NCBI GenBank assembly: GCA_014879945.1
Contig: JACSRE010000168.1
Coordinates: 1-63,196 of the forward strand
Direction of reading: 5' to 3'
DNA from: Myxococcus sp.
Lineage (GTDB): Bacteria > Myxococcota > Myxococcia > Myxococcales > Myxococcaceae
Length of the DNA stretch: 63,196 bases
Shown: positions 41,825 through 48,217 of the stretch, in pieces
Layout: every line of letters begins with the position of its first letter
Numbering within the stretch: the stretch's first letter is position 1
Program-made: the position numbers and the translations under genes
Notes under the pieces: model-generated
What the model was told of the DNA's origin: nothing
Seen by the model: the letters and a program-made list of their open reading frames with translations, nothing else
Database searches by the model: none

Positions 41825-42750
41825 ATGACATGACCTTCGACATCACCCCGTATCGCTCGCTGTACCCGTGGCAGGGCCGGTTCTTCGACACCGGCAACGG
41901 CGTGCGCATGCACTACCTCGACGAGGGCCAGGGCGAGACGCTGGTGATGCTCCACGGCAACCCCACCTGGAGCTTCTACTGGCGTCACCTGGTCAGCGCC
42001 TTCTCGGGTCAGTACCGGGTGATCGTGCCCGATCACGTCGGGTGTGGGCTCTCTGACAAGCCCTCCGACGCAGAGTACCCGTACGTGCTCGAGCGCCGCG
42101 TGGCCGACCTCGACGCGCTGCTGAAGTCGCTCGGCATCACGAAGAACGTCACCCTGGTCCTGCACGACTGGGGCGGGATGATCGGCATGGCGTGGGCGAC
42201 GAAGAACCCGGGCCTGGTGAAGCGCTTCGTGGTGCTCAACACCGCAGGGTTCGGTCTCCCCCAGGGCGCCAGGCTGCCGTGGCAGATCGGCGTGGTGCGC
42301 TACGCGCCGTTCTTCCCCGTGCCGGTGCGGGCCTTCAACGCCTTCTCCCGAGGCGCCAACCTGTTGTGCTCGACGCGCCCGGGCCGCATGACGCCCCTGG
42401 TGAAGCAGGCCTACCTCGCGCCCTACGACTCGTGGGCCAACCGCATCGCGGTGCAGCGCTTCGTCGAAGACATTCCGCTCGCGCCCGGCGATCGCAGCTG
42501 GCCGGTGGTGCAGGAGGTCTCGGACAAGCTCGGGCAGTTCAAGGACGTGCCCATGCTCATCTGTTGGGGCCGGAAGGACTTCGTGTTCGACGACGCCTTC
42601 CTCGCCGAGTGGAGAAAGCGCCTGCCGGGCGCCGACGTGCATGTCTTCGAGGACGCGGGCCACTACGTGCTCGAAGACGCGCCTGACGAGATCATCGCCC
42701 TCATGAAGACCTTCCTCGGTAGGCACCCGTTGGCTCCCGCGGCGTCATGA
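41821..42750 (+). CDS. oleB: OleB, beta-lactone decarboxylase (alpha/beta hydrolase)
   Basis: OleB removes CO2 from the beta-lactone made by OleC to leave a cis-olefin. The 309-aa protein has the haloalkane-dehalogenase-like fold: HGNPTW oxyanion segment, nucleophile Asp116 (LHDWGG), acid Asp253 (GRKDF) and His281 (HYVLED). GTG 41821 is favoured by GGGAG 7 bp upstream and overlaps the oleA stop as GTGA; ATG 41830 is an alternative. Sequence alone could suggest a haloalkane dehalogenase, but its position between oleA and oleC settles the call. It is a separate protein, not an OleBC fusion. Confidence 0.92.
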   Translation: MNDMTFDITPYRSLYPWQGRFFDTGNGVRMHYLDEGQGETLVMLHGNPTWSFYWRHLVSAFSGQYRVIVPDHVGCGLSDKPSDAEYPYVLERRVADLDALLKSLGITKNVTLVLHDWGGMIGMAWATKNPGLVKRFVVLNTAGFGLPQGARLPWQIGVVRYAPFFPVPVRAFNAFSRGANLLCSTRPGRMTPLVKQAYLAPYDSWANRIAVQRFVEDIPLAPGDRSWPVVQEVSDKLGQFKDVPMLICWGRKDFVFDDAFLAEWRKRLPGADVHVFEDAGHYVLEDAPDEIIALMKTFLGRHPLAPAAS

Positions 42751-44408
42751 GCGCGCCCCTGCAGCCGAAGCTCAGCACCAACATCGCCTCGCACCTCCCG
42801 GCGATGGCGCGCCTCGACCCGGCCCGGCCGGCGATCATCGCGCCCGACGGGAAGGGGGGCTGGCGGACGATGACCTTCGGCCAGCTCGACACCCTGAGCG
42901 ATCGCATCGCCCACGGGCTCGCGGCGATCGGCGTGACGCGGGGCGCGCGCACGGTGCTGCTCGCTCCGCCGAGCTTCGAGTTCTTTCCGCTCGTCTTCGC
43001 GATCTTCAAGGTCGGCGCGGTGATGGTGGCGATCGACCCGGGCATCGGCCGCAAGGCGCTGCTGGCGTGCCTCGACGAGGTGAAGGCCGACGCCTTCATT
43101 GGCGTTCCCGCGGCGCACGTCGCGCGGCTGCTGTTCCCCGGGCCGTTTCGCACGGTGAAGGCGAACGTGACCGTCGGGCGTCGCTTCTTGTGGGGTGGCC
43201 ACTCGCTCGACGAGGTGAAGGCGCTGGGCAAAGACGAGCCCTACCCGATGGTGGATCCGGCGAAGGGCGAGACCGCCGCCATCCTCTTCACCTCGGGCTC
43301 CACCGGCATCCCCAAGGGCGCGGTGTACTCGCACGAGATCTTCGACGCGCAGGTGAGGCTGATCCGCGACGCCTACCGCATCACCCCCGGTGAGATCGAC
43401 CTGCCGACGTTTCCCCTCTTCGCGCTGTTCGACCCGGCGCTCGGCATGACGGCGGTGCTCCCCGACATGGACTTCCGGTTCCCCGCGAAGGCCGACCCCA
43501 GGAAGCTGATCGACGCGATGACGACGCACGGGTGCACCTCGATGTTCGGCTCGCCAGCGCTCATCGACAACCTGGGGCGCTACGGTGTGGCACACGGGGT
43601 GAGGCTGCCCGGCCTCAAGCGGGTGTTGTCCGCCGGCGCGCCCGTGCGGGTGGACGTGCTCGAGAACCTGACGAAGCTGCTGGGGCCTGACGCGCAGATC
43701 TTCACGCCCTTCGGCGCCACCGAGTCGCTCCCGGTCGCGAGCATCGGGAGCCACGAGGTGCTGGCCGACACCGGGAAGCTCGCCATGCAGGGCAAGGGCG
43801 TCTGCGTCGGCCGCCCCGTGCCCGAGATCACCGTCCGCGTGATCGAGATCTCTGACGCGCCCATCGCCACCTGGGCCGAGGCGCGCGAGGTGCCGCAGGG
43901 GGTCGTGGGGGAGATCACCGTGGCCGGCCCGGTGGTGACGCGCGAGTACTGGGCGCGGCCCGAGCAGACGAAGCTGGCCAAGATCCAGGACGGCGACCGC
44001 GTCGTGCACCGCATGGGCGACGTCGGCTACCTCGACGAGATCGGGCGCCTGTGGATGTGCGGGAGGAAGGGCCACCGCGTGGTGACGGCCTCGGGCACGC
44101 TCTTCACCACGCCGGTCGAAGAGGTGATCAACCAGCACGAGGCGGTGCGACGGTCGGCGCTCGTGGGCGTGGGCCCGGCGGGGGCCCAGGTTCCGGTGCT
44201 GCTGCTGGAGCGCGAGGCCGAGCAGGGCCCGACCGACGGCGCCCTCGTGCAGGCCGTGAAGGAGCTGGCGGCCAGGCACGAGACGACCAGGCGCGTGGCG
44301 CACGTCTACGTCTACCCGGGGGAGTTCCCGGTGGACCGTCGCCACAACGCGAAGATCGAGCGGGAACGGCTCGCCGTGTGGGCGACGAAGAAGGGGCTCG
44401 GGCGATGA
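42747..44408 (+). CDS. oleC: OleC, beta-lactone synthetase (AMP-forming ligase family)
   Basis: OleC uses ATP to close a 2-alkyl-3-hydroxy acid into a beta-lactone. The 553-aa protein belongs to the ANL adenylation superfamily: FTSGSTGIPKGAVYSH phosphate loop (about residues 180-195), FGATES, DVGY and GRKGHRV hinge region, and a C-terminal lysine in RRHNAKIERE. It starts at ATG 42747 in an ATGA overlap with oleB and ends in an ATGA overlap with oleD. Confidence 0.92.
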   Translation: MSAPLQPKLSTNIASHLPAMARLDPARPAIIAPDGKGGWRTMTFGQLDTLSDRIAHGLAAIGVTRGARTVLLAPPSFEFFPLVFAIFKVGAVMVAIDPGIGRKALLACLDEVKADAFIGVPAAHVARLLFPGPFRTVKANVTVGRRFLWGGHSLDEVKALGKDEPYPMVDPAKGETAAILFTSGSTGIPKGAVYSHEIFDAQVRLIRDAYRITPGEIDLPTFPLFALFDPALGMTAVLPDMDFRFPAKADPRKLIDAMTTHGCTSMFGSPALIDNLGRYGVAHGVRLPGLKRVLSAGAPVRVDVLENLTKLLGPDAQIFTPFGATESLPVASIGSHEVLADTGKLAMQGKGVCVGRPVPEITVRVIEISDAPIATWAEAREVPQGVVGEITVAGPVVTREYWARPEQTKLAKIQDGDRVVHRMGDVGYLDEIGRLWMCGRKGHRVVTASGTLFTTPVEEVINQHEAVRRSALVGVGPAGAQVPVLLLEREAEQGPTDGALVQAVKELAARHETTRRVAHVYVYPGEFPVDRRHNAKIERERLAVWATKKGLGR

Positions 44409-45391
44409 AGGCGATGGTGACGGGTGGAGGCGGGTTCCTGGGCAGCAACCTGGTGAGGGCCCTGCTGGCGCGCGGCGACGCTGTTCGGGTGCTGGCGCGC
44501 GGCGATTACCCCGAGCTGCGGGCCGCCGGCGCCGAGACGATTCGGGGCGACATCACCGACGCGGCTGCGACGGCCGCGGCCTGTGAGGGCGTCGACGTCG
44601 TCTTTCACACCGCGGCGAAGGCGGGCGGGTGGGGTGATCCGAAGGAGTACGAGGCGATCAACGTCACCGGCACCGACCACGTCATCGCCGGGTGCAGGGC
44701 GATGAAGGTGCCGGTGCTGATCCACACCAGCTCGCCCAGCGTGGTGCACGGCACCGAGGACATCGAGGGGGCGACCGAGTCGATCCCCTACGCGACGCAC
44801 TTCACGGCCCATTACCCCCGCACCAAGGCCATCTCGGAGCAGCGCGCGCTCGCCGCGTCGGACGACACGCTCAAGGTGATCGCGCTGCGCCCGCACTTCA
44901 TCTGGGGCCCCGGCGATCGCCACCTGCTGCCGCGCCTGATCGCGCGCGCGAAGACCGGCCGCCTGCGCCAGATCGGCGCGCGCGACCCGAAGTGCGACAC
45001 CATCTACATCGACAACTGCGTCCACGCGCACCTGCTGGCGGCGGCGCGGCTGCGCGAAGGGGCTCCGCTCGGCGGCAAGGCGTACTTCGTCAGCGACGAC
45101 GCGCCGATCGGGGTGTGGACGATGGCCAACCGCATGCTCGCGTGCGCAGGGCAGGGGCCGGTGGGCAAGCCGATTCCCGCCGGGCTGGCGTACGCCGTCG
45201 GCGCGATGATGGAGGGCGCGTACTGGCTCTTCGGCGTCGAGAAGGAGCCGCTGATCACCCGCTTCGGGGCGAGCGAGCTGTCGCACGCGCAGTGGTTCGA
45301 CATCAGCGCCGCCAAGCGCGAGCTCGGGTACGCCCCGAAGGTGAGCCTCGACGACGGCCTGACGCGCCTGGCGGCGTCGCTGCGGTCCTGA
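44405..45391 (+). CDS. oleD: OleD, 2-alkyl-3-oxoalkanoate reductase (SDR)
   Basis: OleD reduces the OleA beta-keto acid to the 2-alkyl-3-hydroxy acid with NAD(P)H. The 328-aa extended SDR has the nucleotide motif TGGGGFLG (residues 6-13), a catalytic Ser in TSSPSVV and YPRTK (Tyr137, Lys141). It resembles 3-beta-HSD-like OleD proteins. ATG 44405 overlaps oleC by 4 nt. It is the last gene of the operon; the convergent PPTase stop lies 8 bp away, with no obvious terminator hairpin between. Confidence 0.92.
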   Translation: MKAMVTGGGGFLGSNLVRALLARGDAVRVLARGDYPELRAAGAETIRGDITDAAATAAACEGVDVVFHTAAKAGGWGDPKEYEAINVTGTDHVIAGCRAMKVPVLIHTSSPSVVHGTEDIEGATESIPYATHFTAHYPRTKAISEQRALAASDDTLKVIALRPHFIWGPGDRHLLPRLIARAKTGRLRQIGARDPKCDTIYIDNCVHAHLLAAARLREGAPLGGKAYFVSDDAPIGVWTMANRMLACAGQGPVGKPIPAGLAYAVGAMMEGAYWLFGVEKEPLITRFGASELSHAQWFDISAAKRELGYAPKVSLDDGLTRLAASLRS

Positions 45392-45399
45392 ACGGCGCG

Positions 45400-46137
45400 T
45401 CAGCGCGCGCGCACCATGGCGACGACCCGGTGCGCGTCGAGCCACAGCAGCTCGACCTCGAGCTCGAACCGGGGGTCGGTCGCCTCGAGGAACAGCTCGA
45501 CGCGAACCTGCTCTCGCGACAGCACGTCGACCCGCGCGGCCTGAAAGCCGAAGAACCGGCCCAGGCGGGGCGCGAGGGCCTTGTACACGGCCTCCTTCAC
45601 CGCGAAGCGCAGCATCACGTTCGGCCAGCGGTCGGCTTCCGGCAGGGCCTGCACCTCGACGAGCTCCTCGGGCCGGCACACCCGCGTCATGATCGAGGAG
45701 CGATCGCGCAGCCCGCCCTCGAGATCGACGCCCACGAGCCCCGCGTCACTGGGGCCGACGAGCGCCAGGGCGAGATCCTCCTTGTGGGTGAGCGAGGTGA
45801 TCAGCCCGGGCGGAGACAACGGCGCCCGCGCCGAGTCTGACAGCAGCGCCCACTTCGAGACGTCGACGCCGAGGGCCGCCGCGGCCGCGCGCCACGCCAG
45901 GCGCCCACCGGCCACCTCGATCTGCCGGCGCCCCCGCTCCTGAAGCGCCAGGGCCTGCTCCTTCGGGTGCAGCGCGGCCAGGACCGCCTCGTGCACGGGC
46001 TCGACCCCCGCCGGCAGCGGCACCGCGGCCAGCACGCCGAAGCGCACGGGCCGCACCCACTCGGGCAGGAAAGGAATCGTCACCAGGTGGTCATCGTACC
46101 CGCGCGGCGGCCCCTTTCCCCGCCCGAGAATTCTCAC
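45400..46137 (-). CDS. Sfp/EntD-type 4'-phosphopantetheinyl transferase
   Basis: It transfers phosphopantetheine from CoA to carrier-protein serines. The 245-aa protein has the family motifs VGVDLE and FAVKEAVYKAL, with Mg-binding Asp and Glu. Its place beside the pfa-ole operon suggests it activates the three ACPs, as pfaE does in marine PUFA clusters. The start is uncertain: GTG 46137 has no Shine-Dalgarno, and the first ~20 residues could be omitted. It is convergent with oleD, so it needs its own promoter, in the short region shared with the divergent ATPase genes. Confidence 0.9.
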   Translation of the reverse strand: MRILGRGKGPPRGYDDHLVTIPFLPEWVRPVRFGVLAAVPLPAGVEPVHEAVLAALHPKEQALALQERGRRQIEVAGGRLAWRAAAAALGVDVSKWALLSDSARAPLSPPGLITSLTHKEDLALALVGPSDAGLVGVDLEGGLRDRSSIMTRVCRPEELVEVQALPEADRWPNVMLRFAVKEAVYKALAPRLGRFFGFQAARVDVLSREQVRVELFLEATDPRFELEVELLWLDAHRVVAMVRAR

Positions 46138-46184: not shown

Positions 46185-47111
46185 CTGGACGAGCTGGTCA
46201 ACAAACGTGTCGTGCTCATCACGGGGAAGGGCGGAGTCGGCCGCTCGGTGATGACGGCGGCCCTGGCAAAGCTCGCGGCGAAGCGCGGCAAGCGCGTGCT
46301 CGTCACCGAGGTCGGCGACGAGGGCGACGACTACTCGCCGCTGGCCCGCCACTGGAACCGCGAGCGGCTGCCCCAGCACCCGGAGCTGATCGAGCCCAAC
46401 ATTCACGGCGCGGTGCTGCTCGCCCGCACCGGCCAGGAGCTCTTCCTCAAGTCGGTGCTGCGCTCGGGCACCATCGCCCGCGCCGCGCTCGGCAGCGACG
46501 CCCTCCGCCGGCTCCTCTCGGCGGGCCCTTCGTTTCGCGAGATGGGCGTCTTCTTTCAGCTGCTCTCGGCGCTGCGCCAGAAGACGGGCCCCAACCCGAC
46601 GCACGAGCTGATCCTCATCGACATGCCGGCGACCGGCCACACGCTCTCGTTGACCGGCCTGCCCGAGACGCTGCTCAAGCTGGTGCCGGGTGGGCCGATC
46701 GCCGCCGCGCTCAAAGAGGGCCAGACGTACCTCAACGATCCGAAGCTCGCCTCGGCGTGGATCGTCACGCTCCCCGAGACGCTGCCGGTGAGCGAGTGCC
46801 TCGAGCTGATCGAGGGCCTCAAGAAGACCCGCATGCCGGTGGGCGGCGTGGTGGTGAACCGCATGCCGGCCGACCCGTTCACCGCGGAGGAGCGCGAAGG
46901 GTTGGGCCCGCTGGTCGATCAGCACGGGTGGCTGGGGCGCGAGGCGTTCAAGAAGCCCCTGGTCGCGCACCGTGAGCTGGCCCGCCTCCGCAGCCACACG
47001 GCGCTGCCGATCTTCGTGATGCCCGAGCTGCCGCACGAGGGGCTGATCGCCGCCATGGCCGGGCTCCTCGACGTCGCCACGCCGCTGCCGCTGCCGACTG
47101 GAGGCGCCTGA
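46185..47111 (+). CDS. ArsA/Get3-like ATPase, P-loop Lys replaced by Arg
   Basis: A deviant-Walker-A ATPase of the ArsA/Get3 group, 308 aa. The P-loop reads GKGGVGRS: the signature Lys15 is kept but the phosphate-binding Lys is Arg20. Switch II is well preserved (DMPATGHTLSL, like Get3 DTAPTGHTL), whereas switch I (TEVGDEGDD) lacks the usual DPAHS. The start is unusual. The first in-frame GTG (46212) would cut the first strand of the fold; CTG 46185, with GAGG 7 bp upstream, gives LDELVNKRVVLITGKGG and is preferred. It lies 2 bp before a paralogue with the reciprocal defect, and the two probably form a heterodimer. Cargo unknown. Confidence 0.8.
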   Translation: MDELVNKRVVLITGKGGVGRSVMTAALAKLAAKRGKRVLVTEVGDEGDDYSPLARHWNRERLPQHPELIEPNIHGAVLLARTGQELFLKSVLRSGTIARAALGSDALRRLLSAGPSFREMGVFFQLLSALRQKTGPNPTHELILIDMPATGHTLSLTGLPETLLKLVPGGPIAAALKEGQTYLNDPKLASAWIVTLPETLPVSECLELIEGLKKTRMPVGGVVVNRMPADPFTAEEREGLGPLVDQHGWLGREAFKKPLVAHRELARLRSHTALPIFVMPELPHEGLIAAMAGLLDVATPLPLPTGGA

Positions 47112-47113
47112 CG

Positions 47114-48217
47114 ATGAGCCAGGTGCGCGTCGGAGAACTGCTCCGCACGAAGAAGGTGATCGTCTGCTGCGGCGCTGGAGGCGTGGGCAAGACGACGACC
47201 GCCGCCGCGCTGTCGATCGCCGCGGCGCGGGCCGGGCGCAGGGTGTTGGTGCTCACCATCGACCCCTCGCGCCGCCTCGCCGAGACGCTGGGGGTGTCGC
47301 GCAACCCGACCGATCCGGTCCGCATCCCCAAAGATCGATCAGACGCCGCCGGCATCACCACCGGCACCCTCGACGCGTGGATGCTCGACATCAAGCTCGT
47401 GTCCGACGGCGCGGTGCGGCGGCTGGTGAAGAGCGACGCCGACGCGCAGCGCATCTTGTCGAACCGCATCTACCAGCAGGTCAGCACCATGGTGGCGGGC
47501 ATGCACGAGTACACCGCCATGGAGGCGCTCCACCGCCTGGTGCACGCGGGCCAGTACGATCTGGTCGTGCTCGACACGCCGCCCTCGCGAAACGCCCTCG
47601 ACTTCCTCGAGGCGCCCCGGCGGCTGTCTGGCCTGGTGGACTCGCGCGCCATCTCGGCCTTCCTGCCCCGCTCGGACAGCCTGGTGGCCCGCACCGCGTC
47701 GCGGGTGATCGAGAAGATCCTCGGGGCGGTGTTCGGCGAGGAGTTCGCGCACGAGTTCGTCGGCTTCATCGGCACCTTCACCAGCATCTTCCAGTCGCTC
47801 AACGTCGACGTGAACGAGATGCGCCGCTTCCTGTCGAGCGACGACGTGGCCTTCCTGCTCGTCTCGTCGCCTGCGCCCGCGGCCTTGACCGAGGCGTCGT
47901 TCTTTCACGACAAGACCCGCGAGCTGGCGCTCCCGTTTCGAGCGTTCGTGCTCAACCGCAGCCACGCCACCGACGCGGGGCGGCCGATGCCGTCGGCGCC
48001 CTTTGGCGCCAGCGCGGCGGTGCTCACCGGGTTGCCGAAGCTGACCCGCCTGGCCGAGACGGAGCAGCTGGCGGCGGTGCGAGACTTGACGCTCCTGGGA
48101 GAGCTGCAGAAGCGGGCGGGGGAGGGCGCGACCGCCATCGCGCTCCCTGAGCTGCCGCAGGGGGCCGACGACGTGGTGACGCTGGTCTCGGTCGCCGACG
48201 CGCTCGCGGCTTCTTGA
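47114..48217 (+). CDS. ArsA/Get3-like ATPase, signature Lys replaced by Ala
   Basis: The second ArsA-family ATPase, 367 aa. The P-loop is GAGGVGKT: the catalytic Lys26 is present but the intradimer signature Lys is Ala21. Switch I is TIDPSRRLAE and switch II is LDTPPSRNALDFL, so this subunit keeps the ATP-binding residues its neighbour has lost. ATG 47114 follows the previous stop by 2 bp. Arsenite transport is unlikely, since no arsenic genes are near and no clustered metalloid-binding cysteines are evident. A membrane-protein targeting or cell-organisation ATPase is possible but unproven. Confidence 0.88.
   Translation: MSQVRVGELLRTKKVIVCCGAGGVGKTTTAAALSIAAARAGRRVLVLTIDPSRRLAETLGVSRNPTDPVRIPKDRSDAAGITTGTLDAWMLDIKLVSDGAVRRLVKSDADAQRILSNRIYQQVSTMVAGMHEYTAMEALHRLVHAGQYDLVVLDTPPSRNALDFLEAPRRLSGLVDSRAISAFLPRSDSLVARTASRVIEKILGAVFGEEFAHEFVGFIGTFTSIFQSLNVDVNEMRRFLSSDDVAFLLVSSPAPAALTEASFFHDKTRELALPFRAFVLNRSHATDAGRPMPSAPFGASAAVLTGLPKLTRLAETEQLAAVRDLTLLGELQKRAGEGATAIALPELPQGADDVVTLVSVADALAAS

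Follow-up and report, generated by a model that had tools for sequence, protein, structure and literature searches.

A BagA/BagB-like pair of Get3/ArsA-fold ATPase genes from Myxococcus with complementary P-loop substitutions

Two adjoining ATPase genes and their motifs

The window (the whole stretch of Myxococcus sp. DNA that was analysed, 63,196 nucleotides) carries two adjoining genes on the plus strand, hereafter gene A (46185..47111; product of approximately 308 aa, TGA stop) and gene B (47114..48217; 367 aa), the ATG of gene B lying 2 bp downstream of the stop of gene A. Both products passed the gathering score of the Pfam family ArsA_ATPase (PF02374; 65.7 bits for A and 72.0 bits for B, against 24.3), and phmmer searches against the PDB returned as best matches Rv3679/BagA for gene A (6bs3_A; 2.4e-18) and Rv3680/BagB for gene B (6bs3_B; 2.9e-56). 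These two proteins share the crystal entries 6BS3-5 as separate chains, 6BS3 being entitled 'ADP-bound bacterial Get3-like A and B'. Scored against the NCBIfam equivalog families of the BagA/BagB pair (NF053622 and NF053621), gene A reached 70 bits against BagA, below the cut-off of 400, and gene B 244 bits against BagB (3.2e-72), below the curated cut-off of 521, so that the window pair is a distant relative of BagA/BagB rather than the same equivalog. Gene A also showed a weak match (26 bits versus a cut-off of 90) to NF047398, the NCBIfam 'KGGVGR-motif variant AAA ATPase', and the KGGVGR motif variant hence already has a name elsewhere. A literature search on the motif string KGGVGR returned nothing relevant, and our literature search found no biochemistry on the Arg-bearing clade to which gene A belongs.

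The putative start codon of gene A is a CTG (46185-46187). Since orthologue conservation sets in at exactly that codon and one orthologue has GTG at the same place (five near relatives have CTG), a start at 46185 is plausible. The first start codon of table 11 in gene A is the GTG at 46212, and its use would remove the first beta-strand.

The Walker A motifs of the two genes are exactly those claimed by the initial annotation. In the deviant motif of gene A, GKGGVGRS (46224..46247), the signature Lys is kept (AAG, 46227-46229) and the P-loop Lys is replaced by Arg (CGC, 46242-46244), whereas the motif of gene B, GAGGVGKT (47171..47194), has Ala for the signature Lys (codon 47174-47176) and keeps the P-loop Lys (AAG, 47189-47191). 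Switch I of gene B, TIDPSRRLAETLG (47255..47293), contains the catalytic Asp at 47261-47263; the corresponding region of gene A, TEVGDEGDDYSPL (46305..46343), is divergent. The idea that switch I is preserved only downstream therefore holds for the DP motif, which is found only in B, but not for the acidic residue of this region (46317-46319 in the window), which is kept in A in 22/22 orthologues of the window's clade in the form [VIL][GA][DE]. Switch II agrees with the earlier reading that GHTL is present only upstream: gene A has DMPATGHTL (46620..46646), and gene B has DTPPSRNALDFL (47573..47608) without GHT.

Compared with other members of the genus, dN/dS is approximately 0.15-0.23 for gene A and 0.11-0.16 for gene B, and purifying selection thus acts on both genes. 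The Arg in the P-loop of gene A is present in every orthologue seen in the window's genus (82-91% identity). With this conservation and dN/dS well below 1, sequencing error, chance or a pseudogene were ruled out as explanations of the motif.

Lysine losses in the phylum and in actinobacteria

We compared 83 A and 77 B rows from a phylum-level search, together with 80 pairs from actinobacteria, the one group through which sampling extended beyond the phylum. The window's genome itself holds three BagAB-like pairs (three A and three B genes), which define the types used below: W for the window's own pair, M for the pair on contig C151 (GKGGVGKT in A, GAGGVGKT in B) and N for the pair on contig C438 (GKGGVGKT and GSGGVGKT). 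The M- and N-type rows represent roughly half of the matches of these two types, and some of the contigs are short.

The B subunits are uniform. The signature Lys is found in 0/157 rows (77 from the phylum and 80 actinobacterial), its place being taken by A, S or P, and the P-loop Lys is retained in 157/157; the switch I Asp is present in 77/77 rows. The loss of the signature Lys in B is therefore a family rule, and the older of the two losses, given that this lysine is absent from every B row of both the phylum and the actinobacteria.

The A subunits retain the signature Lys in 82 of the 83 phylum rows and in all 80 actinobacterial rows. The exception is an M-type pair (L100, G141:C2) in which A reads GTGGVGKT and B reads GAGGVGKT, a pair without any signature lysine. 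The P-loop Lys of A is present in 41/41 M-type and 19/20 N-type rows, and the actinobacterial A proteins carry both lysines, as GKGG[TA]GK[ST], in 80/80. The W clade (tree support 100/97), whose members come from several families and, in one genome, from another class, has Arg at this position in 20/22 rows and Lys in the other two (L055 in G144:C963 and L063 in G001:C19), which may represent either a reversal or the retained ancestral state. Accordingly, the expectation of the initial annotation that no orthologue would carry both lysines in one protein did not hold: both occur together in the actinobacterial A proteins, in both other pairs of the same genome and in 2/22 close orthologues. 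Because so many related A proteins carry both lysines, the change from Lys to Arg in A, and hence full complementarity, is a derived state of one clade.

Several further observations bear on the A position. The tree requires at least four changes at the A P-loop, the P-loop column itself having been included in the tree. Arg codons in the W clade are all CGN (CGC, CGG or CGA) and never AGR. Replacement of the P-loop Lys by Arg was counted in 21/163 A rows versus 0/157 B rows (Fisher P = 5e-7, with relatedness ignored). A separate N-type A protein on a short contig (L104, G128:C365) also reads GKGGVGRS and is apparently a second, independent change from Lys to Arg in A.

The remaining active-site residues of A are unevenly conserved. 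No A row departs from the Asp, the Gly or the His of switch II (83/83 rows) or from the adenine-reading Asn. The Thr that follows the P-loop is relaxed in the W clade alone (V8 T7 S6 A1); it is T in 36/41 and 16/20 rows of the other A types and near-invariant in B. This pattern suggests that the A site is weakened in its phosphate and trans-lysine contacts, with the adenine pocket kept.

Predicted arrangement of the two subunits

In one orthologue (L060), the reading frame of A runs on into that of B, interrupted by just one TGA. This TGA was read as Trp and the resulting read-through chain was modelled with AlphaFold without templates, from an input of six read-through chains plus B rows in which only the six rows cover the A half. 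The A half of L060 is 56% identical to window A, so that the model is one of an orthologue and not of the window pair. The model (mean pLDDT 78, pTM 0.76, linker disordered) overlays with both halves on the closed, MgATP-bound form of ArsA (9nbw; Z 25.6, 518 residues, rmsd 3.6), and less well on the open forms of ArsA (Z 21.4-21.9). The prediction supports, as distinct from proves, a face-to-face, ArsA-like A-B dimer; given the pseudo-symmetry of ArsA, the overlay of the modelled chain leaves unfixed which half would donate which lysine.

Genomic context

Adjacency of A and B is kept in 22/22 loci of the W clade, and the other neighbours vary, no neighbouring gene being common to all these loci; function was therefore not derived from the neighbours. 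The genes for OleC/OleD, a phosphopantetheinyl transferase, TPR and acyltransferase proteins that accompany the pair in the window's genus are otherwise shared by some close relatives only. In the window, the region just upstream (42747-46137) holds genes for olefin biosynthesis that resemble OleC and OleD, together with one for a 4'-phosphopantetheinyl transferase (45400-46137, minus strand). In mycobacteria, tolerance of citrate is altered by bagAB insertions, and links of the two genes to the toxicity of glycerol and nitric oxide (PMC10597346) and to survival of streptomycin (PMC12216072) have been described.

Elsewhere in the window's genome, an opposite-strand gene resembling short-chain dehydrogenases (L011 7670-8539) separates A from B in the C151 pair. 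Contig C390 encodes a fused two-domain Get3/ArsA-like protein (L009 5183-7117) in which a single chain shows this asymmetry, its first half having GKGGAGKT and no DP switch I, and its second half GGGGVGKS and STDPSHSL.

A model with one complete site

In Get3, the second (signature) lysine extends to the opposite subunit and stabilises charge there during hydrolysis; the water is ordered by the switch I Asp (PMC10248533). As the initial annotation had proposed, the two halves of the window pair look complementary in this respect: only the site on B would be able to combine a P-loop Lys, a switch I Asp and a signature Lys supplied in trans. Our preferred reading, which we consider probable, is that A and B form a BagA/BagB-type ATPase, that is, an A-B heterodimer with one complete composite site on B. 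It would be built as a heterodimer, or as two such heterodimers joined together, and its P-loops would be opposed as they are in ArsA; at the composite site, B would give the P-loop Lys, the Mg-binding Thr, the switch I Asp and the switch II Asp, and the signature Lys of A would reach over to it. The site on A would never receive a signature Lys, B having Ala there, and would be further reduced by the change of the P-loop Lys to Arg in the W clade and of the alpha-phosphate Thr to Val in the window's genus. It would most likely be non-hydrolytic, because it gets no trans signature Lys from B and has lost its P-loop Lys, and might be structural; it may also still hold a nucleotide or an anion, since the P-loop position remains basic and neither the adenine Asn nor the switch II residues vary. 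Hydrolysis of ATP on B would open and close the dimer and in this way drive a client or cargo step. The motifs, the family and the phylogenetic pattern are observations, as is the ArsA-like arrangement in the prediction for one orthologue; from these we infer that A and B form heterodimers in this organism, that only B is catalytic and that A is silent. As a counter-point to the heterodimer reading, the two W-clade members with Lys in A indicate that Arg is not indispensable; cross-pairing among the three A and three B genes of the genome may also be possible.

A stronger form of the same model seems to us possible rather than probable. Throughout the W clade, the A site would be permanently non-hydrolytic, an Arg-locked nucleotide or anion site; neither homodimer would be competent, and catalysis would be achieved wholly by intersubunit complementation. 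If this is true, A and B would be naturally occurring complementing mutants within the Get3/ArsA family and would offer a ready system in which to probe the purpose of the second site.

Among the alternatives, the one that survives best, although we regard it as unlikely, is a BagAB-like complex of the ordinary kind, with two sites for nucleotide, in which the Arg of A is tolerated as a conservative change, A binds and slowly hydrolyses ATP, and the logic of a single site is only partial. Indeed, NosGet3d (All4481; PDB 3IGF/8EGK) has Arg at the canonical lysine as well as Glu for the switch I Asp, and is a homodimeric ATPase with a kcat of 0.28 per min (PMC10248533). The P-loop position of the W clade is likewise always basic (20 R, 2 K), and A may retain ATP binding or a slow turnover, as its acidic switch I residue, its switch II Asp and GH and its adenine Asn are kept. 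However, NosGet3d is a homodimer in which a signature Lys is supplied in trans, whereas the A site of an A-B pair gets Ala, and the W clade is relaxed at the Thr following the P-loop, the residues on the B side being invariant by comparison. The same protein limits the earlier claim that homodimers would have no complete site, which is too strong for A: an A-A homodimer would have trans signature lysines and, as NosGet3d hydrolyses ATP with Arg at this position, cannot be called inactive from sequence. Taken as a whole, the earlier interpretation is partly supported.

Constructive neutral drift, in which the old loss in B made the site of A useless and the P-loop Lys of A then drifted to a functionless Arg, strikes us as improbable. 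The order of events would suit it, the loss in B being universal and older and the change in A occurring in one clade, found again in L104 and absent from L055 and L063. Drift would nevertheless be expected to leave varied residues, whereas only Arg or Lys occurs in 22 rows over deep divergence, with Arg codons that vary synonymously; a position that is always Arg or Lys thus argues against drift alone and favours a role in structure or binding. Lastly, that A and B are unpaired, with A a homodimer resembling NosGet3d and B pairing elsewhere or monomeric, is very improbable: three A and three B genes are available in the genome and the P-loop of an A-A dimer would resemble that of NosGet3d, but A and B stay adjacent in every W-clade locus though their other neighbours change, and their relatives were co-crystallised (6BS3-5).

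Comparison with known systems

Get3/ArsA ATPases normally have two symmetric or near-symmetric composite sites, the contributions of which are hard to separate. Under the preferred reading of an A-B heterodimer, one complete site would here be kept and the other disabled in two steps, the paralogues in the same genome corresponding to the intermediate state, with both lysines in A and no signature Lys in B. The Arg clade, the two members of it that have Lys and the paralogues of the Lys type would together form a natural mutant series, bearing on whether one site is enough and whether the second is structural, and also on the role of the poorly understood BagAB-like pairs outside mycobacteria. 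As an analogy only, the fold and mechanism being unrelated, heterodimeric ABC exporters combine one consensus and one degenerate ATP site.

Get3/TRC40 shares with the window pair the fold, the deviant Walker A motif and the switch regions. It differs from the pair in being homodimeric, in carrying both lysines on every chain and in having a CXXC zinc motif; this motif (C..C) is absent from window A, window B and the 22 orthologues of each, and a Get3 with a zinc motif was thereby ruled out.

ArsA (E. coli, 1F48; L. ferriphilum, 9NBW) resembles the window pair in having two non-identical Get3 halves placed face to face, and the modelled A-B chain overlays both of these halves. It is, however, one polypeptide, whereas the window pair consists of two genes split by a stop, and its metalloid is bound by cysteines for which A and B have no counterpart: window A contains a single Cys, and window B two adjacent ones beside the P-loop. 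With the metalloid cysteines absent and the halves in separate genes, an arsenite pump was ruled out. E. coli ArsA, one of the sequences in the PDB search alignment, has both lysines in both halves.

NosGet3d and some cyanobacterial Get3d proteins share with window A the natural Arg for the P-loop Lys and the retained signature Lys, and NosGet3d is a weak sequence match of window A (2.6e-5). Unlike window A, which has a partner B and keeps the adenine Asn, NosGet3d is encoded by a single gene, forms a homodimer and has Ile for this Asn. It also differs in its alpha-crystallin domain: a Pfam scan of the window pair (E <= 0.001) found no such domain (ArsA_HSP20).

The closest known system is BagA/BagB of Mycobacterium tuberculosis (Rv3679/Rv3680; PDB 6BS3/6BS4/6BS5), the best PDB and the best NCBIfam match of each window subunit. 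As in the window, the A and B genes adjoin, A has the signature Lys and no DP switch I, and B lacks the signature Lys and has the P-loop Lys and a TIDP switch I. The difference lies in A, BagA having both lysines (GKGGTGKS) where window A has Arg. The B half of the asymmetry is thus normal for the family and already known from the mycobacterial pair, and the A half is a conserved change from Lys to Arg in one clade.
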